From Planctomycetota bacterium (GTDB taxonomy: Bacteria > Planctomycetota > JADGBV01): 35,410 nucleotides of DNA. This document shows, piece after piece, positions 5,840 through 20,691 of the stretch. A program made the translations under genes and the position numbers. The notes beneath the pieces were generated by a model. That model was not told where the DNA came from. It did not search any database and was given only the letters and a program-made list of their open reading frames with translations. Each line of letters begins with the position of its first letter. The first letter of the stretch is position 1. The stretch lies in NCBI GenBank assembly GCA_015231345.1, contig JADGBV010000004.1:1-35410 (forward strand). The letters run 5' to 3'.

Positions 5840-8800
5840 TCAGATTTCCTTTTGAATAGGAGTAAAAAAAGATTCTTCGGGATTTTGCTGCTCATCTTGA
5901 TGATTTAAGTTTATGGCATTTTTTCCAAAAACATAAAATAAAGCAGGGCGAACGATAAAATCCAGTAAAGTACTGGAGATGAGTCCACCTATAATAACTG
6001 TCGCTACGGGGTAAAGGATTTCTTTGCCTGGTTCCCCTGGTGATAATGCTAAGGGAATAAGAGCAATGCCACTTGTGAGAGCTGTCATCATTACGGGGAC
6101 CATTCTTTCCTGACCAGCTTTAATAATCAGCTCGACAGAGAAAGGCATCTTTTCAACCTTCAATAAGTAAATGTAGTGATCTATTAGCAAAATTGCATTT
6201 CTTGAAGCGATGCCTCCTAATGAAATGAGACCAACAAGACTTGCCACAGAAAGAACCTGCTCGCTGAGATAAATATAAATCACGGCACCGATAAAAGACA
6301 TGGGAATGCTAGCTAGCACTTGGAAACTAAGATTTAAGGATTTAAAGTGAAGGTAGAGAATCATCACCATACAAGCTACTGAAAGTAAACTCAAAAGCAG
6401 TATTTTTTTTGTCGCTGCTTGTTGGGCTTCAAACTGGCCGCTAATATGGATAGAATATCCAGTTAAGTCATTGAGTTTTTCTTTAAGAGGTAGGAGAGAT
6501 TTTTCTATATCAGAGACAACTTCCCCTAATGACCGGCCTTGAATGTTATTTTGTACAACAATGCGCCGACTCATATTTTCGTGTTTAATATTATTGTTCT
6601 CCAAGTTCATGATGACTCTTGCTACATCTTCTAATCTAATTAATGTATCGTCGGGCTTTTTGAGATATAAATTTCGAATATCATTTAATGATTTTCGCTG
6701 ATCTTCTTGCAAACTAAGTGTTATGGGATAACTAAAGCGACCTTGCACAAAACGTGAGATGCGTTCTCCCCCCAAAGAAAGTTCAATTGTTTGGCCGACA
6801 TCATCCACAGATAGACCATGACGTGCAAGCATTTCCCTTTTAGGTTCTATTGAAATATTAGGAATCAAGACTTGTGGTTCAACCATCAGGTCTTTGATTC
6901 CAGGAATATTTTTAATGAGCCCTTCTGTCTCTTGAGCTAGATTTCTCAGCATATTTAGGTCTGGTCCAGAAATCTTGATAGCAACTTGAGCTTTAATCCC
7001 AGACAGCATAGCGCTGAGAAGATGAGCCAATGGTTGGTCCACTGCAAATGCAACACCGGGGAATTCCGCAGAGATTTCAGTACGTATTTCACTTAAAATT
7101 TCGTCTCGGGAACGATCAGAATTATTGTCAAAGGTAATAATCGCTTCACTATTGTTGACACTTTCAGCGTGCTCGTCACCTTCAGCTCGTCCAGTTCGCC
7201 TCGTAACATGCTGCACCCCTGGAATTTGAATCAGTAATTTTTCTAATCGGCGACCGTATTCATTGGATGTTTTTAGGCCAGTTTCAGGCGGTAAAACTAA
7301 ATTGATTTGCACGACTCCTTCATTGAAGGGTGGGAGGAAACTCGTCCCTGTGTTGGCCAAAATATAAAATGCTATGCCTGTTGTTATCAGCAAAGCTGCT
7401 AATATAGGAGTGGACATATTGACGCTAAATCTAATGACGCGTGATGTTACTTTTTTGAGCATCGAAACGACAAAGCTATCATTCTTGTGATTCGACTGAA
7501 TATTATTTGGAAGCAGATAATAAGATAATGCAGGTGTCAGTGTGAGAGATACAATCAACGAAGACCCTACGCTTATAATATATGCATAGCCTATGGGAGT
7601 GAATAGCTGACCTTCCATCCCACTTAGAAAGAAGAGTGGGGTATAAACTATAATAACAAGAAGTGTGCCAATAACAATGGCTTGTCTCACTTCAGAAGAT
7701 GCTTCGTAAATTACAACCAAAGGATGTTTCTTCTGGTCTGAATCCAAGAGGGCATTCTGACGCAAGCGCCTAAATACATTCTCCACATCTACGATAGCAT
7801 CATCAACTAATGCCCCTATAGCAACAGCTAGACCACCTAAGGTCATGGTATTAATCGATATACCGAAAATAGAAAAAATTAATGCCGTCATGGCAATGGA
7901 GATGGGGATGGCTGTAAGTGTTATGAGAGTGACACGCCAATTCATGAGAAAAATAAAGAGGATGATGATGACCATAAGACCTCCATCCCTTACAGCTTCA
8001 AAGACATTATCGATCGCTCGGTGGATAAAATCAGCTTGCCTGAATAAATCAGATATAATCTCGATACCTTCAGGAAGGGCATCATTTAATCGAATCAGGC
8101 TTTTGCTAACATTTTGAGTGAGACTTAAAGTGTCCGCTTCGGGTTGTTTCATAATAACGAGTAAAACACCTGGATGACCATTGATTCCAGACTCTCCCAC
8201 CTTGATGGCAGAAGGGCCAAACTCTATGGCGGCCACATCGCTTATACGAATGGGGCGATGTTTGTTATGACTGACGACAGCTTTTGCCAACTCATCTTTG
8301 TTATTCAGCATCCCTGTAACTGTAATAACTGGAGATTTGGTGCCTAATTCCATAAAACCACCACTGCTATTTTGATTGTTTTCCAGAATAGCATTTTCAA
8401 CATCCTTGATAGTGACTCCATAAGCCCGAAGTTTTAAGGCATCAACTTTAACTTGTAATTGTTTTGTGGAGCTACCTGAAACAATCACCTTAGAAACTCC
8501 AGGGATTGCTAATAAGTCATACTTTAAGCGGTTATCAGCAATGGAACGAATTTCTTCTTGACTCAGATGATCATTTTTACTTCTTAGGCCTATGATCTGA
8601 ATTTGCCCCATTACACTAGAGATGGGAGCCATGATGGGAATAATATTATCTGGTAAGCGATCTTTGGCTAAGACAAGTTTTTCTGCGACTATTTGCCTGT
8701 TTCTGTATATGTCACTTCCCCAAGCGAATTCAACTTTAATCACCGATAAGCCTAGTCCAGATGCTGAACGAACCCTTTCAACACCTGTTGCGCCATTTAA

Positions 8801-9016
8801 TATTTGCTCTAAAGGGAGAGTGACAAGTTGTTCTACGTTAATGGGAGTCATGGCATGAGCTTCTGTCATAATGACAACAGTTGGGCGATTTAAGTTCGGT
8901 AGCACATCAATGGGCATTTGCTTTGCGGTATAAAAGCCAGCAAAAGCAACGATTATTGCAGATGCAATAATGAGGGTGCGGTTTTTTAAACTATAAGCGA
9001 TTAAAGCGTTCAACAT
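5840..9016 (-). CDS. Heavy-metal efflux RND pump (CusA/CzcA family)
   Basis: A 1058-residue RND permease of full family length, with the N-terminal span, a large periplasmic loop, a central membrane cluster, a second loop and a C-terminal cluster. The HME-RND signature in the fourth membrane segment is AIGALVDDAIVDVENVFRRL, with acidic residues D405, D406, D410 and E412 in the proton-relay region. This resembles CusA/CzcA rather than drug pumps. It exports metal cations from periplasm or cytoplasm by proton antiport, docking with the adaptor and outer-membrane factor encoded just upstream. GAGG before the ATG supports the start. It is the last gene of the operon, eight bases after the adaptor gene. 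Which metal it exports (Cu/Ag or Zn/Co/Cd) cannot be fixed from sequence alone. Confidence 0.93.
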   Translation of the reverse strand: MLNALIAYSLKNRTLIIASAIIVAFAGFYTAKQMPIDVLPNLNRPTVVIMTEAHAMTPINVEQLVTLPLEQILNGATGVERVRSASGLGLSVIKVEFAWGSDIYRNRQIVAEKLVLAKDRLPDNIIPIMAPISSVMGQIQIIGLRSKNDHLSQEEIRSIADNRLKYDLLAIPGVSKVIVSGSSTKQLQVKVDALKLRAYGVTIKDVENAILENNQNSSGGFMELGTKSPVITVTGMLNNKDELAKAVVSHNKHRPIRISDVAAIEFGPSAIKVGESGINGHPGVLLVIMKQPEADTLSLTQNVSKSLIRLNDALPEGIEIISDLFRQADFIHRAIDNVFEAVRDGGLMVIIILFIFLMNWRVTLITLTAIPISIAMTALIFSIFGISINTMTLGGLAVAIGALVDDAIVDVENVFRRLRQNALLDSDQKKHPLVVIYEASSEVRQAIVIGTLLVIIVYTPLFFLSGMEGQLFTPIGYAYIISVGSSLIVSLTLTPALSYYLLPNNIQSNHKNDSFVVSMLKKVTSRVIRFSVNMSTPILAALLITTGIAFYILANTGTSFLPPFNEGVVQINLVLPPETGLKTSNEYGRRLEKLLIQIPGVQHVTRRTGRAEGDEHAESVNNSEAIITFDNNSDRSRDEILSEIRTEISAEFPGVAFAVDQPLAHLLSAMLSGIKAQVAIKISGPDLNMLRNLAQETEGLIKNIPGIKDLMVEPQVLIPNISIEPKREMLARHGLSVDDVGQTIELSLGGERISRFVQGRFSYPITLSLQEDQRKSLNDIRNLYLKKPDDTLIRLEDVARVIMNLENNNIKHENMSRRIVVQNNIQGRSLGEVVSDIEKSLLPLKEKLNDLTGYSIHISGQFEAQQAATKKILLLSLLSVACMVMILYLHFKSLNLSFQVLASIPMSFIGAVIYIYLSEQVLSVASLVGLISLGGIASRNAILLIDHYIYLLKVEKMPFSVELIIKAGQERMVPVMMTALTSGIALIPLALSPGEPGKEILYPVATVIIGGLISSTLLDFIVRPALFYVFGKNAINLNHQDEQQNPEESFFTPIQKEI

Positions 9017-9024
9017 AATAAACC

Positions 9025-10884
9025 TCAGTGATTATGGCCGGCATGTGGATCGACAGCCATAGGTGTACCTGCAATAAGGGCTTGGTGTAGGGCAAAGGCA
9101 CCTTCTGTCACCATCGCTTCTCCGGGTAGTAGTTCTGAGCCTTCACCAATGACTGCGTAGTCACTATCTTCATGAAGGACTATGACTTTTCTTTTGATGA
9201 ACTGATTGTGTGCCTTAATGTAGACTATCTTATCTGGCCCTACTTGTATGACTGCTTTACTCGGAAGAACTATAACATCTTTCAAAATATTGATGGGTAC
9301 TTGAAGGAAATACTTCATGCCGCTACGAAGATTCCAGTTCCGGAAGGTTTTGCCTGTATCTGATTTGTTTAGGCTCATGATAGTATTGATGAAAGGGAGG
9401 TATACTTCATCTTGCCCGTCACTATTGCTGCTCATCTTACTAACGCTGAGGCTTGGGATATTCAGCCCTGTTCCTGGCAGTAAGGGGACTGCTTGAATAG
9501 GTAAATTTTCTCTACAAGACTTTGTCAGTGGAATGATTTCAGAACCTTGGGGGTGGGCTAATAAATACATATCGGAATGATTACTGAGGGTTAATAGACT
9601 ATCACCCTCACTAATCCATTGTCCCACTTTAACATTAACTGAATCGATATCCCATCCGGTTTCATTAAGTGGAGCCATGACACTTACAATCGCTTCAAGA
9701 GAACCACTCTGAAAATGATCTTTGATATCTTGTAGCGAATGACCGTCTTGAAGTAGTCTAGCAATTTTTAAAAAATGAGCACTTGCTTCTTTATTGCTTT
9801 CAAGCCATTCTATTAAAGCTGGAGATATAAGTTCTTCAGCGCTCATTTCCCCAATTGTAGCGATGCACCAGCGATCGGCTCCATCTTCTTTAGGTAAAGA
9901 CATTAGTAGTCGTTCGCACTGTTTATTCCAAATTTGATTTGCCTTTAAAGCTCCTAGCCATAGATTTGCAGAGGGGATATTAAGGTTCTCGCTGCTGACT
10001 TTATTTATATCCTTTAGAGACAACCCATGCCACTGCATCTTTTGTTCATTGTTTTTAAGGTCAGCTTCAATTTCAGCTTTGCGGTAATTAAGTTCAATAA
10101 TTTCTTTGCGTGGAACAATAACTGTGGATGTCTGCTTATCTTGAAAAGTTTTTATTCTTGATAATTCTTGATTGATAATTTTCAACAGCACGTTATTCTT
10201 TCTGTAGTCGATAACGGTATTATGATATTCTTCAGAAGCTGGTTTGAGTATATTATCGACCATATTGATTTCAGGTCTTTTTATGGGGGCTCGAAGCATG
10301 CGTAGTAAAACCGTCTTGCTCTGAATGAATTCTCCAGGAATAACATTTATGCTGAGTATACGCCCATGAGTGGGTGAAAATAGGGGTTGTATGTTATTGT
10401 TGTGTTCAGCAACGACTGCTGGGACGGGTGTGTATAAAGTGTAGTGACTCGTATTTATTGCTTGTATTTTTACTCCCATATTAGCTAAGGCCTGCTCAGA
10501 AACTTCCGTTTCACTATGAGACTCATGGTCATGGTCACAGCTGGAGTCTTCTGGTTTCTTTATGGCTGCAGAGGGGGCCTCGTGATTATGTCCAGAATGA
10601 TCGTCATCTTGTGCATGGTCATGGCCACAGCTAGATTTTTCTGTTTTATTTGTGACCCCAGAGTGAATACTGTGATTGTGCTCAGAATGACCCTCACCTT
10701 GTGCATGGTCATGGCTACAGCTGGACTCTTCTGCCTTGCCCATGTCCCACTCAAGGGTCTTATGGCTATTCCAAGAATAATTATTCAGTATAGAATGATT
10801 ATGCTTTGAATAATCATCATTTGCAAATAAATAAAGTAGCAATAGAGAAAAACTGATTAGTGTGATGATGTATTTTTTGTTCAT
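9025..10884 (-). CDS. His-rich periplasmic adaptor of the metal efflux pump (CusB/CzcB-like)
   Basis: I start at the ATG at 10884, four bases after the stop of the outer-membrane factor gene. The product then begins MNKKYIITLISFSLLLLYLF, a membrane anchor or signal. The longer reading from 10932 would overlap the upstream gene. Residues about 54-127 hold two complete and one partial 30-residue repeats rich in Cys, His and Asp, and the C-terminus ends DPHAGHNH. Both look like metal-binding sites. The core matches membrane-fusion proteins: a half lipoyl segment (FSPTHGRILSINVIPGEFI), a helical hairpin (about 200-290), the second half (VNVKVGQWISEGDSLLTLS) and a beta-barrel. Odd feature: about 100 mostly helical residues (roughly 305-405) sit between the hairpin and the second half. 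It bridges pump and outer-membrane channel and may hand over metal. Confidence 0.88.
   Translation of the reverse strand: MNKKYIITLISFSLLLLYLFANDDYSKHNHSILNNYSWNSHKTLEWDMGKAEESSCSHDHAQGEGHSEHNHSIHSGVTNKTEKSSCGHDHAQDDDHSGHNHEAPSAAIKKPEDSSCDHDHESHSETEVSEQALANMGVKIQAINTSHYTLYTPVPAVVAEHNNNIQPLFSPTHGRILSINVIPGEFIQSKTVLLRMLRAPIKRPEINMVDNILKPASEEYHNTVIDYRKNNVLLKIINQELSRIKTFQDKQTSTVIVPRKEIIELNYRKAEIEADLKNNEQKMQWHGLSLKDINKVSSENLNIPSANLWLGALKANQIWNKQCERLLMSLPKEDGADRWCIATIGEMSAEELISPALIEWLESNKEASAHFLKIARLLQDGHSLQDIKDHFQSGSLEAIVSVMAPLNETGWDIDSVNVKVGQWISEGDSLLTLSNHSDMYLLAHPQGSEIIPLTKSCRENLPIQAVPLLPGTGLNIPSLSVSKMSSNSDGQDEVYLPFINTIMSLNKSDTGKTFRNWNLRSGMKYFLQVPINILKDVIVLPSKAVIQVGPDKIVYIKAHNQFIKRKVIVLHEDSDYAVIGEGSELLPGEAMVTEGAFALHQALIAGTPMAVDPHAGHNH
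10504..10725 (-). repeat. 90-base tandem repeats coding the His/Cys-rich segment of the adaptor
   Basis: Two full 90-base units (10636-10725 and 10546-10635) and one partial unit (about 10504-10545) each encode a unit beginning SSCxHDHAQ, followed in the full units by HSxHNH and a Lys/Glu-rich spacer. DNA similarity is visible, with ATGGTCATGG followed by ACAGCT recurring on the plus strand, so the array looks like recent in-frame duplication. Unit number may vary between strains. Confidence 0.8.
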
Positions 10885-10888
10885 AGTC

Positions 10889-12280
10889 TTAATTAGGAAA
10901 GGTATTAGGAGTGGTTGCGTTCGGTTGGCCATTCATATTCAGTAAAGGATAGCCACAGAGATTCTCAAGTAGAATCACATTCAGCCAAGCTTTCTCTTGT
11001 AATTCAATTCTTTTAAGATGTGCTTCCTCATAGCGTGCTCTCATATCTAGGTACTGCAATGAATCCAGACTACCAAAAGAGATCGCTTTTTGTGCTTCAT
11101 TCATACTTTGCTTATATTGAGGTATGAGTTTTTTGTCGATGATATCAAGCTGCTCCAAGCTTATTTTGCATAATTGTATTCGGCTATCAAGGCTTGTGGA
11201 GAGTTCTGATAAGGTGTTTTTATAGGCCCTTAAGTGAATTTTACGTTGATTGATTGCCTGACTGATGCCTGATTGATTTCTATCAAAAAGAGGAATGTCG
11301 ATCCCCAAAGGAATCGAGGTGATAACTGTCTTTTCTCCGACTTCCTGCTCTCGACTAAATCCGATACTTAAGTCGGGGTACTGTTTTGCTAGCTCGAGCT
11401 TGAGCACCTGATCAGACTTGCGAAAATTCATTTTGTCTATGGCAAGTTGATTGTTGTTCTCTGTCATAATCTCTAGTAAATTTGCTTCTGACCAGAAATT
11501 GAAAATAGAGGACGGCTGAGAAAAATTTAGCTCTCTGATGTATTTCAGGTCAACATCAAGGAGTTGTGCTAGAGATTCGGAGTTTTTGATTTGCTCTATA
11601 ACTAAATCTTTTGCCTCAAGCTCTAAGTTAGTCAAGCGAATATTCGTGTCAAATAGCCCCAGGCTGGTGCCAAGCCCTGCCTGAATAGATTTCTCTAAGG
11701 ATCGCCTGAAGGTCGCGAGGGACTTCTGAAGTTCAGCTACTTGTTTCGTTTTGATCGCTGAAAAAGCATATTTGAGATAAGCTTCTTTAAGCTTAAAATA
11801 CAGAGTGCGATGTTGGATAACTTTGCTTGTGTAACTTTGCTGGGCTAGGATATTCTTTAGGTCATCATTGCGGCTTAGTCGTGGGCCAAGTGGGATTTGA
11901 AAGGCGAGAGAAAGAAATCCTTGTCGACTACTTGCAACAGTGTCCTCTAGTCTGCCCCCAAATGCCGGTCCAAATTCTATGCTAGGATTTGGCCATGGGC
12001 TTTTGATCTTTGCTAGTTCTAGACTTGCTTTGTACTGTTGATGTAATAACTGAAGTTCACGGTTATGTTTTTCTAAGATCTTAGCTGCATCTGTAAATGT
12101 GAAGGGCTGAGTTGAATTGGAATTCTCTGAGCGCTCTGTTCTAAGCTGAATAATCTCTTTGTGAATCTTCGTCGAATTAAGCTCTAAAGCACTATAGCGC
12201 TGACATGAACATAAAGCTAAGCACAGAGCCAAGCTAACAACGATAGTTTGATAAATAGTAAAAAGTCTTTGATAAGACAT
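10889..12280 (-). CDS. TolC-family outer-membrane factor of the metal efflux system (CusC/CzcC-like)
   Basis: About 463 residues from the ATG at 12280. This start is preferred over an upstream TTG (12337) because AGGG lies eight bases before it and the product then has a signal peptide, MSYQRLFTIYQTIVVSLALC. A Cys at the end of LALCSC could be a lipobox, so it may be a lipoprotein. Long helices with the two-fold repeat of OEP domains follow (FTDAAKILEKHNRELQLL in the first half; IPLGIDIPLFDRNQSGISQ in the second). It should form the outer-membrane exit duct for the adaptor/RND pump. The Shine-Dalgarno is predicted to be buried in a leader RNA stem (separate entry). The adaptor start follows the stop by four bases. 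Confidence 0.88.
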   Translation of the reverse strand: MSYQRLFTIYQTIVVSLALCLALCSCQRYSALELNSTKIHKEIIQLRTERSENSNSTQPFTFTDAAKILEKHNRELQLLHQQYKASLELAKIKSPWPNPSIEFGPAFGGRLEDTVASSRQGFLSLAFQIPLGPRLSRNDDLKNILAQQSYTSKVIQHRTLYFKLKEAYLKYAFSAIKTKQVAELQKSLATFRRSLEKSIQAGLGTSLGLFDTNIRLTNLELEAKDLVIEQIKNSESLAQLLDVDLKYIRELNFSQPSSIFNFWSEANLLEIMTENNNQLAIDKMNFRKSDQVLKLELAKQYPDLSIGFSREQEVGEKTVITSIPLGIDIPLFDRNQSGISQAINQRKIHLRAYKNTLSELSTSLDSRIQLCKISLEQLDIIDKKLIPQYKQSMNEAQKAISFGSLDSLQYLDMRARYEEAHLKRIELQEKAWLNVILLENLCGYPLLNMNGQPNATTPNTFPN

Positions 12281-12284
12281 AAAG

Positions 12285-12374
12285 ATATCCCTGGAAAAGA
12301 TGAAGTGATGGAGACACTTTAAAGTGCCAAACAACAAGGTGAAGCGAAGATGATCGCTTTACACTCAGGGATAT
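12285..12374 (-). promoter_or_regulatory. Predicted SD-sequestering RNA fold upstream of the outer-membrane factor
   Basis: On the minus-strand RNA, AUAUCCCUG (plus 12374-12366) is perfectly complementary to CAGGGAUAU (12293-12285). The second arm contains the AGGG ribosome site of the gene starting at 12280. Between the arms lie two more hairpins: GUG-UA-AAGCGA/UCGCUU-CAC (about 12364-12338), and CACU-UUAA-AGUG (about 12325-12314). Together they suggest a three-way junction. The first arm begins two bases after the stop codon of the Cys/His-rich ORF (12376-12378). A ribosome terminating there would cover that arm and free the Shine-Dalgarno. This resembles translational attenuation or coupling. 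The fold is my hand prediction. Confidence 0.6.
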
Positions 12375-12375
12375 T

Positions 12376-12810
12376 TCAAATGATAAGTTGTATGCTTGAT
12401 ATGATCTTTAAATGATCTGAAAGGGGAGGAGGGGAATCCTCAATGAAATAATGCTCTTGGTGTGGAGTGTATCTGAATTGCTTCAGAAAATGTGACTTGC
12501 AGGGAGGTGGTGATGTTAATTCAATACTTAATAATTGAGGCCTGAGTTGACGATTTTGGCATAAATTGGGCAAGATGAGATCCTGGCAGTTATGATCATG
12601 ATCTCTAGATGCCTTTTGCTTATCATTGCTTTTCTCTTGTGTCTCACATAGGTCATGGTGTGCACAAGCGCATGAATTTTCCACTTCAAGTTCAAGGTGA
12701 ACTTCTTCGCCTTCTTTCTGACACAGGACCATGTTTTTCGGTAATAGGCCTGATGTTAGAGCCACAAAGGCAATAAAAAGAGGAATAAAATGTCTGGTCA
12801 AAATGGACAT
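12376..12810 (-). CDS. Small Cys/His-rich exported protein leading the metal efflux operon
   Basis: A 144-residue protein starting with a hydrophobic signal-like segment (residues 7-24, HFIPLFIAFVALTSGLLP). It continues with metal-ligand-rich stretches: VLCQKEGEEVHLELE, SCACAHHDLC and ASRDHDHNC. Two SPPP motifs follow in the C-terminal half. Seven Cys and many His and Asp in an exported protein next to a metal pump suggest a periplasmic metal binder, sensor or chaperone. I recall small proteins of similar look (VLC plus an HVxLE-like motif and a Cys cluster) ahead of RND pumps in Verrucomicrobia relatives, but cannot verify this. It is first in the operon with no clear Shine-Dalgarno. Its stop abuts the predicted attenuator fold, so its translation may control the next gene. 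Confidence 0.72.
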   Translation of the reverse strand: MSILTRHFIPLFIAFVALTSGLLPKNMVLCQKEGEEVHLELEVENSCACAHHDLCETQEKSNDKQKASRDHDHNCQDLILPNLCQNRQLRPQLLSIELTSPPPCKSHFLKQFRYTPHQEHYFIEDSPPPLSDHLKIISSIQLII

Positions 12811-12890
12811 ATGTGGTATTTTAAATGAATTTCAGCTTATGCAACAATATTGAAAATAGCACGAGGAATCTACAATAATCTTTTTTTGCC

Positions 12891-13715
12891 ATGATCCAGA
12901 GTTTGAATCACACCCAGCGAGAATTATTTATCACTATTTTTGAGTCTGATACACCCAAAGGGAAAATCTTTGATTTGCTCCTCATTTGTATGATTCTCAT
13001 TTCGCTTTTTATTGTGGCTTTGGAGAGTGTAACTGCTATTAAGGTTAATTGGGGAAGCTATCTCATCGCTTTTGAGTGGGTATTTACAGTATTATTTACG
13101 ATAGAATATTTTTTACGCATTTATTGTCATCCCCATAAATCGAAGTATATCTTCAGCTTTTTTGGTCTCATTGATTTGATTTCAATTATGCCCACATACT
13201 TATCGCTATTTTTACCTTCAGCCCATTATTTTTTGACAATAAGAATTCTAAGGGCGCTGAGAATATTTAGAATTCTTAGACTGATGAATTACTTAGGCGC
13301 TTCTGATGTGTTGTTTAATGCTCTTCGCTCGAGTCGACTGAAAATCACCATATTTCTCTCATGGATTATTTGTATTATCGTTATTTTCGGCAGTATGATG
13401 TATGTTGTTGAAGGTAACGAGAACGGATTTACCAGTATTCCCAAAAGTATTTACTGGTGTATAGTTACATTAACGACTGTAGGTTATGGTGATATTGTAC
13501 CCAAAACGGTCTTAGGTCAGACTTTAGCTTCTTTTATAATGATTTCAGGCTACGCTATTATCGCAGTACCAACAGGTATTGTGACTGCAGAAATGACTAT
13601 GACTAAGATGAAAGAGTTGCAAGAACCTGGCATTATCTGTCCCGATTGTAATCATGAAGGACATATAAATGGAGCTAAATTTTGCCACAAATGTGGTGGG
13701 GAATTAGTCAATTGA
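12891..13715 (+). CDS. Voltage-gated potassium channel with C-terminal zinc ribbon
   Basis: 274 residues with six membrane segments. S1 is around FDLLLICMILISLFIVALES. S4 is seen in IRILRALRIFRILRLM, with Arg at every third position as voltage sensor. The pore helix and selectivity filter are TLTTVGYGDIVP. After S6 (ASFIMISGYAIIAVPTGIV) the tail holds CPDC-x14-CHKC, a two-CxxC zinc ribbon, from residue 248 on. It conducts K+ across the inner membrane in response to voltage. The ribbon may tune gating or assembly; channels with such tails are known in several bacterial groups. It is divergent from the metal efflux operon with an 80-base shared upstream region, and convergent with the response regulator gene. 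Confidence 0.9.
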   Translation: MIQSLNHTQRELFITIFESDTPKGKIFDLLLICMILISLFIVALESVTAIKVNWGSYLIAFEWVFTVLFTIEYFLRIYCHPHKSKYIFSFFGLIDLISIMPTYLSLFLPSAHYFLTIRILRALRIFRILRLMNYLGASDVLFNALRSSRLKITIFLSWIICIIVIFGSMMYVVEGNENGFTSIPKSIYWCIVTLTTVGYGDIVPKTVLGQTLASFIMISGYAIIAVPTGIVTAEMTMTKMKELQEPGIICPDCNHEGHINGAKFCHKCGGELVN

Positions 13716-16497: not shown

Positions 16498-18984
16498 TCA
16501 TTCCTTGAGCCAAAGAGTTTGGAAAGGCTTAAGGGCTAACTGTCCCTTTTGACAATTATCTTGAACTTTAATAGAGCTGATTAGATCTGTTTGGCTTTGA
16601 ATGCTAAGTTCTGCAACAACATTCTGAGGGATAGAAGTTATTGTGCTGCTTAAATTAACTAACACAATAGTTCGTGATTCTTGATAACCTAAGGTAATGC
16701 ATGCAATATGTTTAGGGAGGTCATTATGATGAAAAATTTCAGCTTCTTGTCCTCGTGGATTGAGTGCCATGTCGTTATCGACAATATAAATAAGATGGTT
16801 TAAGCCTGTAGCTATCAGAGTCATAAAATCATTGGGAGCGTTTAAGTTAAGCTCTAGATCTTCATAGATAGACTTTGTTCTTTTAAGATCTCTAAGCTCA
16901 CCACTTTCACTACTGCGATTCTGGTCATTGGCTAGAGCCAGAAGGTCATTAAAGTAAATCGATTTAACATTTCTACCCATAAGAGCAAAAGCTAAGGTGT
17001 AAAAAGCAAGGTACCGTTTCACTTCTAGCTCACTTTGCTCTAACTTTTCTAAGGCATCACGAGTCGAAGAGCATAATTCATAAGGTTCTCGTCCATGTAC
17101 AATTTGATTCATGAAATATTGAATGACTCCCGGCTCTTGTGCTGGGCAGAGATTGGCTTTTTGTAGAAAATTATCTTCGCTACCTAATTCATCTGCAAGA
17201 ATATAGTCTTCATCAGTACTATCGTGATTAGCGAATATATGTTTCTTGAAATCAATTTCATCTACTCCAGCTTCTTGGCAAATAATCCTAAAGTTTTCTT
17301 GGCTGATTTTTCCAGATGGGACAGATTTATATTTCACTCTGCCTCCATTCTTTTCAATAATATTAGCGACCAATTGCCTTTCGCCTAACTTTAAGATATC
17401 CATACTTCCTCTTACTGACTTTCCGTCGTGACTTTCTGCTAAACTAAAGCGAATGGAATGATGGGGGATATCGTACTTTTTAATCATTGAAAAGATTCTC
17501 GATAAAATGCTTGCGTCCTGTGTTGCAAAGAGAGCAGGCATGATGCCAGCTAAGTGAAAGTCGTACATCATGGGCGGTGGCGCATCCTTATTGGCCATCT
17601 GTGTGAGGATACTCGTTAATGTGTTATTGACCTCTAAGTTGGCCACGATACGAGGTGAGACAGCTTCCATTGAAAGGTAGAGTATTTTCATTAATTGATT
17701 AACTTCCTCTAAGCCAAAGCATGATGTTTGCCATTTTTTGAAAGCAAAATTAGCAGCATCGAGCCTGAGCATATTGAGGTCCATACTCAGGTACCAACTA
17801 AAATCATCTGCCAGCATTTTGAGGCCAAGATAGGTGCCTAGGTTTAAGTCTACTTGAACGTGACTGAAGGTCGTTAATGCGCGAATTTCTTGGCCAAAAA
17901 TACTTTCATTCCATTCATGATAAGCACTAATGACTTTCTCAGCAATAGTTTCAGAGATGGATAAAGCTTTTAATAAATCGATGGGTTGTTGTATGGTCGA
18001 ATGAAATGTATAGGGGGTATATTTCGTTTCTTGAATGGGGGAGACAATAAAAATCCTCTGAAATAAGTCAGCGTTATTTGCTTTGAGGTCATCGGTGAAT
18101 GAAGAGAGTAAATTATAATCGTCGATTAATAAGCTCTGATCATTTTTGATTTTATTGAAAAGGTATAAAAGTCCTATCAGATTATCGCTACTAGAAGAAT
18201 TTTTACTCAGACCATCAATCTCTTCAATTAGATCATCTGAAATCTTGCCTTTCATGGCCTTCAACTGTTCATCTAAGCTGAGTGATGAGAAGCAATCTTC
18301 TTTAGGTTTTCTCCTAAAGATTGTAAAAAGAGGGAAGGGCCGTGGGCGAAAAATATCCTTAAAATCTCCTATCTTCGTTCTTTCTAAATACTCCTCTTCA
18401 CTAAAAATATAAAAACATTCTCCTGCAGTGTCATCACCTGCTAAATATTCTTGAAAAGTAGGGTTATCAATATCGACGTGATTAAGAACAAAATCGGCCA
18501 TGGAGTAATACTCTGACATCATTTGCGCGAAGTCATCATTGCTGCCAAAATTATCATCTATTTCGTCTCTCACAACTTGCGAGAAAAATCCATCGTTAAA
18601 ACGCTTGTGATTGACCTTGCATGCTGGTAGCATATGAAGGCCTTTGAGGTGTGGAAAGTATTTGTCCAAAAAGCGTTTAAGACTTTTCAGAGTCAATTCA
18701 CTGCCACTTTGAACGCTATCTGCATATACGATAGCTACCATTTTTTGTTCAATGCGTGATAAGGGATCTTCGGGATTATAAGCTAAATCTTGATTCCGTA
18801 TCCCAGTGTTCTTGTTCTCCCAAACGGACTTTAAGCTTTTTTGCCAGTACAGAGAGATGTCTTGAGCTAGTTGTCCGTATTGTTGGCTTGGATAGATCTG
18901 CTGAAATATCTCATTGATTTCTAATAAAATACTCTCGTCGAGAGGAAGCCATTTTGATGCTGGAGGTTGATTCTTTTGAGTCAT
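16498..18984 (-). CDS. GH13 glycosidase/phosphorylase, sucrose-phosphorylase-like, with large insertion
   Basis: 828 residues. GH13 subfamily 18-like landmarks: IVYADSV, FNDGFFSQVVRDEID, DFVLNHVDIDNP, FRPRPFPLF, TTFSHVQVDLN, then LRLDAANFAFKKWQTSC with nucleophile D409, ANLEVNN with candidate acid/base E451, and SLAESHDGKSVRG with stabiliser D520. Sucrose phosphorylase and its relatives (glucosylglycerate or sucrose-6-phosphate phosphorylase) transfer glucose to phosphate and are about 490-590 residues. Here about 70 extra residues precede the barrel, and about 145 residues (224-370, bases 17875-18315) interrupt domain B where the family has roughly a dozen. All three catalytic carboxylates are present, so activity is likely, but the substrate is uncertain. 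It precedes the hybrid kinase by 37 bases and may share its transcript. No signal peptide, so cytoplasmic. Confidence 0.85.
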   Translation of the reverse strand: MTQKNQPPASKWLPLDESILLEINEIFQQIYPSQQYGQLAQDISLYWQKSLKSVWENKNTGIRNQDLAYNPEDPLSRIEQKMVAIVYADSVQSGSELTLKSLKRFLDKYFPHLKGLHMLPACKVNHKRFNDGFFSQVVRDEIDDNFGSNDDFAQMMSEYYSMADFVLNHVDIDNPTFQEYLAGDDTAGECFYIFSEEEYLERTKIGDFKDIFRPRPFPLFTIFRRKPKEDCFSSLSLDEQLKAMKGKISDDLIEEIDGLSKNSSSSDNLIGLLYLFNKIKNDQSLLIDDYNLLSSFTDDLKANNADLFQRIFIVSPIQETKYTPYTFHSTIQQPIDLLKALSISETIAEKVISAYHEWNESIFGQEIRALTTFSHVQVDLNLGTYLGLKMLADDFSWYLSMDLNMLRLDAANFAFKKWQTSCFGLEEVNQLMKILYLSMEAVSPRIVANLEVNNTLTSILTQMANKDAPPPMMYDFHLAGIMPALFATQDASILSRIFSMIKKYDIPHHSIRFSLAESHDGKSVRGSMDILKLGERQLVANIIEKNGGRVKYKSVPSGKISQENFRIICQEAGVDEIDFKKHIFANHDSTDEDYILADELGSEDNFLQKANLCPAQEPGVIQYFMNQIVHGREPYELCSSTRDALEKLEQSELEVKRYLAFYTLAFALMGRNVKSIYFNDLLALANDQNRSSESGELRDLKRTKSIYEDLELNLNAPNDFMTLIATGLNHLIYIVDNDMALNPRGQEAEIFHHNDLPKHIACITLGYQESRTIVLVNLSSTITSIPQNVVAELSIQSQTDLISSIKVQDNCQKGQLALKPFQTLWLKE

Positions 18985-19001
18985 AAAAATAATATTGAGA
19001 T

Positions 19002-19021
19002 AGCCGAACAGATTTTCGGCT
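19002..19021 (-). promoter_or_regulatory. Stem-loop between the vWA gene and the GH13 gene
   Basis: AGCCGAA-AATCTG-TTCGGCT on the minus strand gives a seven-pair stem and six-base loop, 17 bases before the GH13 ATG. The following run is ATCTCAATATTATTTTT, where the T-run comes late, so this is at best a weak terminator or attenuator. Confidence 0.35.
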
Positions 19022-19029
19022 CAGGCAAA

Positions 19030-20691
19030 TTATTTCAATGATTTTATCCTTAAAATGAACGAAATAAGTAAGATATCAAAAATAAGAAGAAGGGATAAAA
19101 TGATCTGTTTATACGGCCCAATAGGCTCAAGATATTGACTCAGCTGCCATTGAGTCTGTTGTTGTTTCTGGCGGGCTTGATGGATGTGTTGGTAAAAATT
19201 TAGACCAGAGACTTCAAAGGGGCCAATTTCAGGGTGAAAACAGTCTAATTTCACTGGAAGTTTTGCTAATTCTGGTATAGGCCAGATGTAAATACCTGGA
19301 GTTTCAGGGCTAAGGTTTTGCCAGCGAAAGTCTTTGATTTTGATGAGAGAAGAGCTTTTGCTAAATGTATCGATGCGGATTTTTTCTGGTAAAAAAGTGA
19401 GTACAAGGTTGTTTTGCCATAATTGTGAGATCATACTCTTGAGTTCTTGTTGCTCAAAGTCAGGCCTAGCACAAACATGAAAAAGAGTGTTACCGTCACT
19501 AGAGCTCATATAAATTAGGGGCAAGCCCTCTTGGGAGAACAAAATGACCTGATGCTCTTGGCTACCCTGAGTAGCAATTAAATCATGCCACTTTTCATGA
19601 GGCTTTTGGGTGGAGTTGGTTAGAGGAATATTTTTACTATTATTGCTTGTAGGCCACTGTGAGTTCACTAAAGACTGATTATAGAAAGGTTGCCATAAAT
19701 CCATCGGCTGCAAATCAGGAGAGAGAATATGAATATGAATAGCCTGTTTTTTTAATTGACTGATGACCTTTTTTATGGAATAAGAGTCCCTTTCGCTGAC
19801 TTGCCCATCACTGATGATCACCCAAGTTCGAGGAATGAGAGGGGTTGCTATTTCCTGATTGTTATCTTGTTTATGAGTTCTCAAGTTGCTATTTTGTAGC
19901 TGTGCTCTTATGCCGTCACTTTGCTTCTCCTTTCCAATATCGCTATCATCCACACTCAAATTTTGAGCCAATTCAGTTAAAGCAGAAAGAAGGGCTGTTG
20001 TGCCGCTAGGCTTTTTCCATAAACCTAAGGGGACTTTTTCCCCATCATGAGGCCATTCTCCACATTGAATAAGCATATCAGAAAATGTATACATTTGCCA
20101 TTCTCTGCTAGATAATCGTCGTTTTTCTTTGAGGGACTGAATTGCTTTTTCTAGGCGCGTATGCTTTTCATTCTTATGGAATTCTTCACCCATTGTCGCA
20201 CTTTGATCAAGCAAAATCAAAATCTGCTGATTTTTATGATCAGCTGGAATAATGGGGTGTTTCAGCTTTGAAGTATGATTCCATTCATCGTATATCACGA
20301 CTTGAGTTATATTCTCTTGCTTTTTATATTGGCTTAGAGTTGTGATCGCGATATCACGACCTTTAATTTTGAGTTTGGGTAAGTGAACTGGCCATTGACG
20401 AGTAGAATGATACTCGTGCCTCCCTGCAGGAAATGGAGATATTTCCTTCTCCGCATACCATTCACCTACAAGTTTAGGATTGGAGCCTTGGTGTGATTGG
20501 CTTAAATTAAAAGACCACTTGTAAGGCTTGGACTCGATACTTTTACTTATAACCCACAGGGGGACAAGAGTTATAGCATTAATAAAAAAGAGTATGAGGG
20601 CAGGGTATGAAAAGAGAGATTCTTTAAGGAAATGAGTAAGTCTGAATTGCTTTATACTTTGCTTTTCCATCTTCTTTGTAACCAAAACCAT
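19030..20691 (-). CDS. Membrane-anchored von Willebrand factor A domain protein
   Basis: 553 residues with a hydrophobic span near the N-terminus (YPALILFFINAITLVPLWVI, residues 29-48) and another at the C-terminus (IILSLLLIFDILLISFIL). The vWA domain starts near residue 155. MIDAS metal-site residues are D162 and S164 in LLDQSATMGEEF (a DxSxT variant of DxSxS), the Thr of SGTTALLSAL, and the Asp of VIISDGQVSE. Such proteins bind ligands through a divalent cation and often serve assembly or chaperone-like roles; the role here is unknown. The start is uncertain: ATG 20691 or ATG 20670, both overlapping the acyltransferase gene. With that overlap, translational coupling to an LPS-type acyltransferase is likely. 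Confidence 0.75.
   Translation of the reverse strand: MVLVTKKMEKQSIKQFRLTHFLKESLFSYPALILFFINAITLVPLWVISKSIESKPYKWSFNLSQSHQGSNPKLVGEWYAEKEISPFPAGRHEYHSTRQWPVHLPKLKIKGRDIAITTLSQYKKQENITQVVIYDEWNHTSKLKHPIIPADHKNQQILILLDQSATMGEEFHKNEKHTRLEKAIQSLKEKRRLSSREWQMYTFSDMLIQCGEWPHDGEKVPLGLWKKPSGTTALLSALTELAQNLSVDDSDIGKEKQSDGIRAQLQNSNLRTHKQDNNQEIATPLIPRTWVIISDGQVSERDSYSIKKVISQLKKQAIHIHILSPDLQPMDLWQPFYNQSLVNSQWPTSNNSKNIPLTNSTQKPHEKWHDLIATQGSQEHQVILFSQEGLPLIYMSSSDGNTLFHVCARPDFEQQELKSMISQLWQNNLVLTFLPEKIRIDTFSKSSSLIKIKDFRWQNLSPETPGIYIWPIPELAKLPVKLDCFHPEIGPFEVSGLNFYQHIHQARQKQQQTQWQLSQYLEPIGPYKQIILSLLLIFDILLISFILRIKSLK

Follow-up and report, generated by a model that had tools for sequence, protein, structure and literature searches.

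Does the short gap between a small Cys/His-rich ORF and the outer-membrane factor (OMF) gene of an RND metal efflux operon hold a translational switch, by which the small ORF governs the genes behind it? The locus lies in a 35,410-nt stretch of a Planctomycetota genome (contig JADGBV010000004.1, positions 1 to 35,410; hereafter the window), which we analysed together with related gene junctions from other genomes.

Gene order and structure of the gap

All parts of the operon are encoded on the minus strand, where the small ORF (12810-12376) is followed by a gap of 95 nt and then by the OMF, the adaptor and the RND pump:

12376..12810, minus, small Cys/His-rich ORF of 144 aa with a hydrophobic N-terminal segment, a Cys/His cluster and the end ...SPPPLSDHLKIISSIQLII-stop, the proposed sensor/arrest peptide
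12376..12378, minus, small-ORF stop codon (TGA), paired (UGAA with UUUA at 12283-12280) in the outermost part of the stem in the predicted MFE structure
12366..12374, minus, 5' arm (anti-SD arm) AUAUCCCUG, duplex of -14.7 kcal/mol, matched by 0 of 72 upstream windows
12342..12359, minus, nested hairpin 1 (AAGCGA/UCGCUU), in the MFE and centroid structures
12313..12328, minus, nested hairpin 2 (GGCACU/AGUGUC, one G-U pair), in the MFE and centroid structures
12285..12293, minus, 3' arm CAGGGAUAU, holding the SD AGGG (12292-12289)
10889..12280, minus, OMF, start MSYQRLF, the proposed regulated gene (PF02321 OEP, E = 3.8e-23)
9025..10932, minus, periplasmic adaptor (HlyD_3, E = 2.1e-5; RND_mfp/CzcB-type matches below cutoff)
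5840..9016, minus, RND pump of the CusA/CzcA family by similarity (PF00873, E = 2.3e-228; TIGR00914 with 680 bits, slightly below the cutoff of 701)

The original prediction described a perfect nine-pair stem that encloses two nested hairpins and buries the AGGG of the OMF. The OMF ATG (12280-12278) follows the AGGG at a spacing of 8. The stem is exact in the sequence (12374-12366, AUAUCCCUG, with 12293-12285, CAGGGAUAU), and the RNA fold of 12270-12390 that had been proposed as a check recovered it with both hairpins (12359-12342 and 12328-12313) at an MFE of -27.6 kcal/mol (z -4.16), a stability equalled by 0 of 200 dinucleotide shuffles. In the MFE structure the stem runs outward through UGAA/UUUA, which also pairs the small-ORF stop codon and the A with which the OMF start codon begins. 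The 5' arm does begin just past the stop codon (12378-12376), at a distance of one base (from 12374) and not the two given earlier. The previous estimate of one in 65 gave chance too much credit: perfect runs of nine or more pairs between the first 25 and the last 24 nt of the gap arose in 0.08% of 5000 gap shuffles, and in 0.16% with pairing allowed anywhere upstream (a range of about 1 in 600 to 1250). The predicted probability that the SD is unpaired rises from 0.00 in the full fold to 0.25 once a ribosome is placed over the stretch next to the stop. A dispersed repeat was ruled out, the hairpin being single copy in its genome.

Pairing between stop codon and start region in related junctions

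A scan with the pump found relatives of about 66% identity in Lentisphaera and of 51-62% in Planctomycetota and Kiritimatiellota, and the series of small ORF, OMF, adaptor and pump reappears there. The small protein as sole homology query retrieved almost nothing, BLAST recognising just two homologues (L034 and L036, both directly upstream of an OMF), so the family was reached through its position next to the OMF. Genome searches with an OMF profile yielded 37 separate junctions at which a short Cys/His-rich ORF immediately precedes the OMF; 36 of these junctions were scored. They were drawn from Planctomycetota, Lentisphaerota and Kiritimatiellota (the PVC set), and junctions without a small ORF (e.g. 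L043, L139, L152, L153, L157-L159) were excluded from the positive set. OMF starts were chosen manually, with lipoprotein signal, start codon and SD as criteria, before pairing energies were calculated and after the sequences had been viewed, so that their choice was not fully blind. Searching plasmids for close relatives produced weak TolC matches alone.

For each junction, the OMF start region was paired with the small-ORF end extended by 28 bases. Across the 36 PVC loci the duplex energy of the own pairs was -581 (with the stop of L155 corrected), compared with a mean of -469 (sd 18) in GC-stratified permutations that swapped the partners, of which 0 of 20,000 reached the observed value; this count is not an exact probability because the loci are related to differing degrees. 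Leaving out the window locus still gave 0 of 20,000, as did a reduced set of 30. The OMF start region was paired to the stop region in 67% of the 36 junctions versus 15% of the controls (p = 3e-10), these being 111 neighbouring gene pairs, one of them in fact the window junction.

What is conserved, therefore, is that the OMF start region pairs with the small-ORF end, and not the sequence by which it does so. The arms differ by locus, e.g. GAUCCACU/AGUGGAUU in L038 and AGUUCCUC-UGAGU/ACUCAGGAGGAACU in L130, and within Lentisphaerota they compensate each other up to and including the stop codon (UGAUACC/GGUAUCA in L036, UAAUACC/GGUAUUA in L154). A stem under selection would be expected to behave in this way, keeping its pairing from phylum to phylum as both arms change. 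The covariation check suggested with the original prediction came out in its favour: the arms do not drift independently, and the controls mostly lack the pairing. When the 5' arm was limited to bases after the stop, the signal was weaker (z -2.2, reached by 307 of 20,000 permutations), which indicates that the last codons and the stop codon carry much of the pairing. With a ribosome placed over the stop region, mean predicted SD exposure across loci increased modestly from 0.17 to 0.31. About one third of the loci (e.g. L044, L052, L129, L132) have no clear stem between stop and SD with the starts chosen here. At L155 (1375-1430) a frameshift close to the 3' end of the small ORF puts the usual VTQVLI-TAA ending in another frame, and the RNA stem is kept.

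A further 41 junctions were found beside more distant pumps (loci L054-L113), nearly all in Bacteroidota and one in Ignavibacteria; for only some of them did a profile identify the downstream gene as an OMF. Here, the stem again lies at the stop codon (-394 versus -297, sd 13, 0 of 20,000 permutations). The same arrangement thus recurs with different sequences in dozens of relatives, and for this reason looks like a real switch.

Architecture of the small protein

Neither Pfam nor NCBIfam contained a family matching the window protein or its relatives, and mean column identity among the small proteins is 24%. A hydrophobic N-terminal segment is present in all 36 proteins scored; in the window protein its Kyte-Doolittle value is 2.27, and it was judged to be of export type by this hydrophobicity. 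The last ligand of the Cys/His cluster lies at a median of 66 residues from the end (56-81 in 34 of 36). If about 30 residues occupy the ribosome tunnel and about 17 span the membrane, as reckoned in PMC9973294, a cluster at 66 residues from the end would lie outside the membrane by the time the ribosome reaches the stop codon.

The C-terminus of the PVC proteins is conserved as L-[RK]-[TS]-...-L-[LR]-[ILC]-stop. Among the 37 proteins, L occupies position -3 in 26, L or R position -2 in 31, I or L position -1 in 26, and T or S position -6 in 22, while R at -7 and L at -8 are the commonest residues there. Within the last 30 residues, conservation peaks at the final three (2.2-2.7 bits versus 0.5-1.9 elsewhere). 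Several synonymous codons are used for the terminal leucines and arginines, which argues for selection on the peptide and not on the RNA alone. Three Planctomycetota members (L129, L131, L132) carry a CruR-like motif at their end, RPRAPP followed by two residues, and have weak or no stems between stop and SD. The Bacteroidota ORFs are His-rich and end in LR[GA]PPxx, i.e. R[GA]PP plus a few residues. LR[GA]PP occupies the same place as the PVC terminal motif, with L at -8 and R at -7 as in many PVC members, and RAPP/RGPP ends are known arrest motifs (PMC10987492).

Relation to known upstream regulators

The closest counterpart is CutF of Rhodobacter capsulatus, shown experimentally to be a metal-responsive translational switch controlling its neighbour (PMC9973294). 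In both systems a short protein with metal ligands, exported in CutF and with an export-type N-terminus here, is encoded immediately before a metal-homeostasis gene; both have a short gap, a C-terminal motif and a hairpin in the gap, here predicted and conserved, that conceals the SD of the downstream gene. Among the neighbours that PMC9973294 lists for CutF-like genes, OEP (PF02321) is the commonest. The ends differ, being proline-rich in CutF and L-[RK]-[TS]-...-L-[LR]-[ILC] at the stop in the PVC proteins. With 144 aa and a same-strand gene 95 nt away, the window protein falls within the published CutF-like limits (<150 aa, 1000 nt; PMC9973294). Those rules also ask for PP within 15 residues of the C-terminus, and here PPP stands at residues 16-18 from the end; 21 of the 37 relatives likewise lack PP within the last 15. 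The CxxxC metal motif of the R. capsulatus type is absent, CAC plus His/Cys clusters being present instead, and DUF2946, the Pfam family of CruR and CutF, was matched neither by the window protein at E <= 0.1 nor by the relatives at E <= 1. On these three counts the window protein is not CutF-like by published rules. PMC9973294 assigns most CutF-like members to Pseudomonadota and Bacteroidota; 'Planctomycet' is absent from its main text, and its supplementary lists may include a few PVC sequences.

CruR (Bp2923, DUF2946) of Bordetella pertussis is likewise encoded by an upstream ORF and combines a metal motif with an arrest motif at its C-terminus, the two at fixed spacing. It differs in using Rho-dependent termination, with copper switching the genes off (PMC9426467), and its RAPP motif is missing from most PVC members. 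An export-type N-terminus, a spacer and a conserved C-terminal sequence are also shared with SecM, VemP, MifM and the Sec/YidC-linked arrest peptides; in SecM, VemP and MifM a downstream hairpin is opened by the stalled ribosome, and in some listed clusters the motif ends at the stop codon (PMC10987492). Their downstream genes, on the other hand, encode secretion machinery, and export is sensed, not metal. Measured against what defines export-linked arrest peptides (PMC10987492), the small proteins are upstream ORFs of unknown function with a conserved C-terminus and a spacer of more than 30 residues; their export signal was judged by hydrophobicity only, and the class of the downstream gene differs. 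CzcI, encoded before czcCBA in Cupriavidus metallidurans, is another small upstream protein ahead of the OMF of an RND metal pump and is described as lacking a proline motif (PMC9973294).

A putative translational attenuator and its alternatives

The element is real and conserved, and most likely acts as a translational attenuator. We consider a cis-acting attenuator of the CutF type, controlling the RND metal pump, to be the probable explanation, because translation of CutF in cis, its Sec signal, metal motif, C-terminus and hairpin have each been shown to matter (PMC9973294). With the end of the small ORF free of ribosomes, the long-range stem from stop codon to OMF start would keep the OMF ribosome site closed, and pairing would thereby lower OMF translation. 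The small protein would be exported during its synthesis. Metal binding to the Cys/His cluster, by then outside the membrane, might cause the C-terminus to hold the ribosome at or near the stop codon, where it would cover the 5' arm, free the SD and allow OMF, adaptor and pump to be made. In other words, the peptide end may slow the ribosome and metal on the exposed cluster may modulate this slowing; the sensed signal would be periplasmic metal, and the small protein would act mainly through its translation in cis. The original prediction of a small ORF that doubles as a translational switch gains support from the persistent pairing, the anatomy of a nascent-chain regulator and the layout shared with CutF, to which we add metal response and arrest by inference.

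It is quite possible, and we put this forward tentatively, that L-[RK]-[TS]-x-x-L-[LR]-[ILC] at the stop is a PVC arrest motif of an undescribed class, which would replace RAPP/polyproline and couple periplasmic metal to translation of the RND pump, with the stop codon lying within the regulatory stem. This terminal motif is missed by filters based on proline pairs, and it is position and architecture that link the CutF-like, Bacteroidota LR[GA]PP and PVC proteins. Metal sensing by a nascent exported protein would extend to deep-branching phyla. Experiments have established the mechanism in one organism, and the pairing, kept while its sequence changes, adds comparative RNA evidence from dozens of loci.

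Plain translational coupling by stems that hide an SD is a known phenomenon, and a stem at the stop codon fits it equally well. Each terminating ribosome would open the stem, OMF would be made in proportion to the small protein with neither arrest nor metal sensing at this step, and the small protein would be a periplasmic metal binder whose C-terminal motif serves protein function. We regard this as a serious but rather unlikely alternative: on its own it does not explain why the C-terminus is better conserved than the remainder of the protein, why the Cys/His cluster keeps a fixed spacing and why arrest-type LR[GA]PP ends stand at the same position in Bacteroidota.

Attenuation at the translational level also seems preferable to a scheme in which Rho terminates transcription within the gap under the control of the small ORF, the hairpin being either incidental or a means of protecting the RNA. 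The related upstream ORF CruR does work in this way (PMC9426467), and the three loci with RAPP-like ends and weak or no stems (L129, L131, L132) would suit it, yet this scheme needs no pairing between SD and stop region, which is conserved, and the CruR gap is longer (162 nt, PMC9973294, versus 95 nt here). An intrinsic terminator was sought in the window gap and none was found, which has no bearing on Rho. Overall, this scheme appears improbable. More improbable still is an RNA element that binds metal directly, independent of small-ORF translation: the metal operon and a structured gap with nested hairpins would be in keeping with a riboswitch, but the hairpin region gave no Rfam match at E <= 1, and no conserved loop or junction sequence stood out between loci by eye, the stop/SD pairing recurring while the nested part differs. 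Finally, a functionless chance hairpin is scarcely credible given a shuffle P of about 0.001 and conservation across phyla, even though four unrelated control junctions also pair strongly.

Further observations in the window

Copper specificity was considered for the pump by comparison with CusA and was left unassigned; the three aligned positions, which we take to be the CusA methionine triad, read I, N and A. The adaptor (9025-10932) carries several His-rich repeats of the SSC-HDHAQ/HSxHNH type near its N-terminus and ends in DPHAGHNH. Upstream of the small-ORF ATG (12808-12850, minus strand; AAATACCACATATG) no SD is evident, which could mean a leaderless message or a wrongly assigned start. 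The divergent gene adjoining the small ORF (12891-13715) contains a TVGYGD motif and probably encodes a voltage-gated potassium channel. Elsewhere, a strong inverted repeat without an SD (18984-19032, minus strand; duplex -17.5 kcal/mol) lies between two neighbouring genes and is possibly a terminator-type hairpin.
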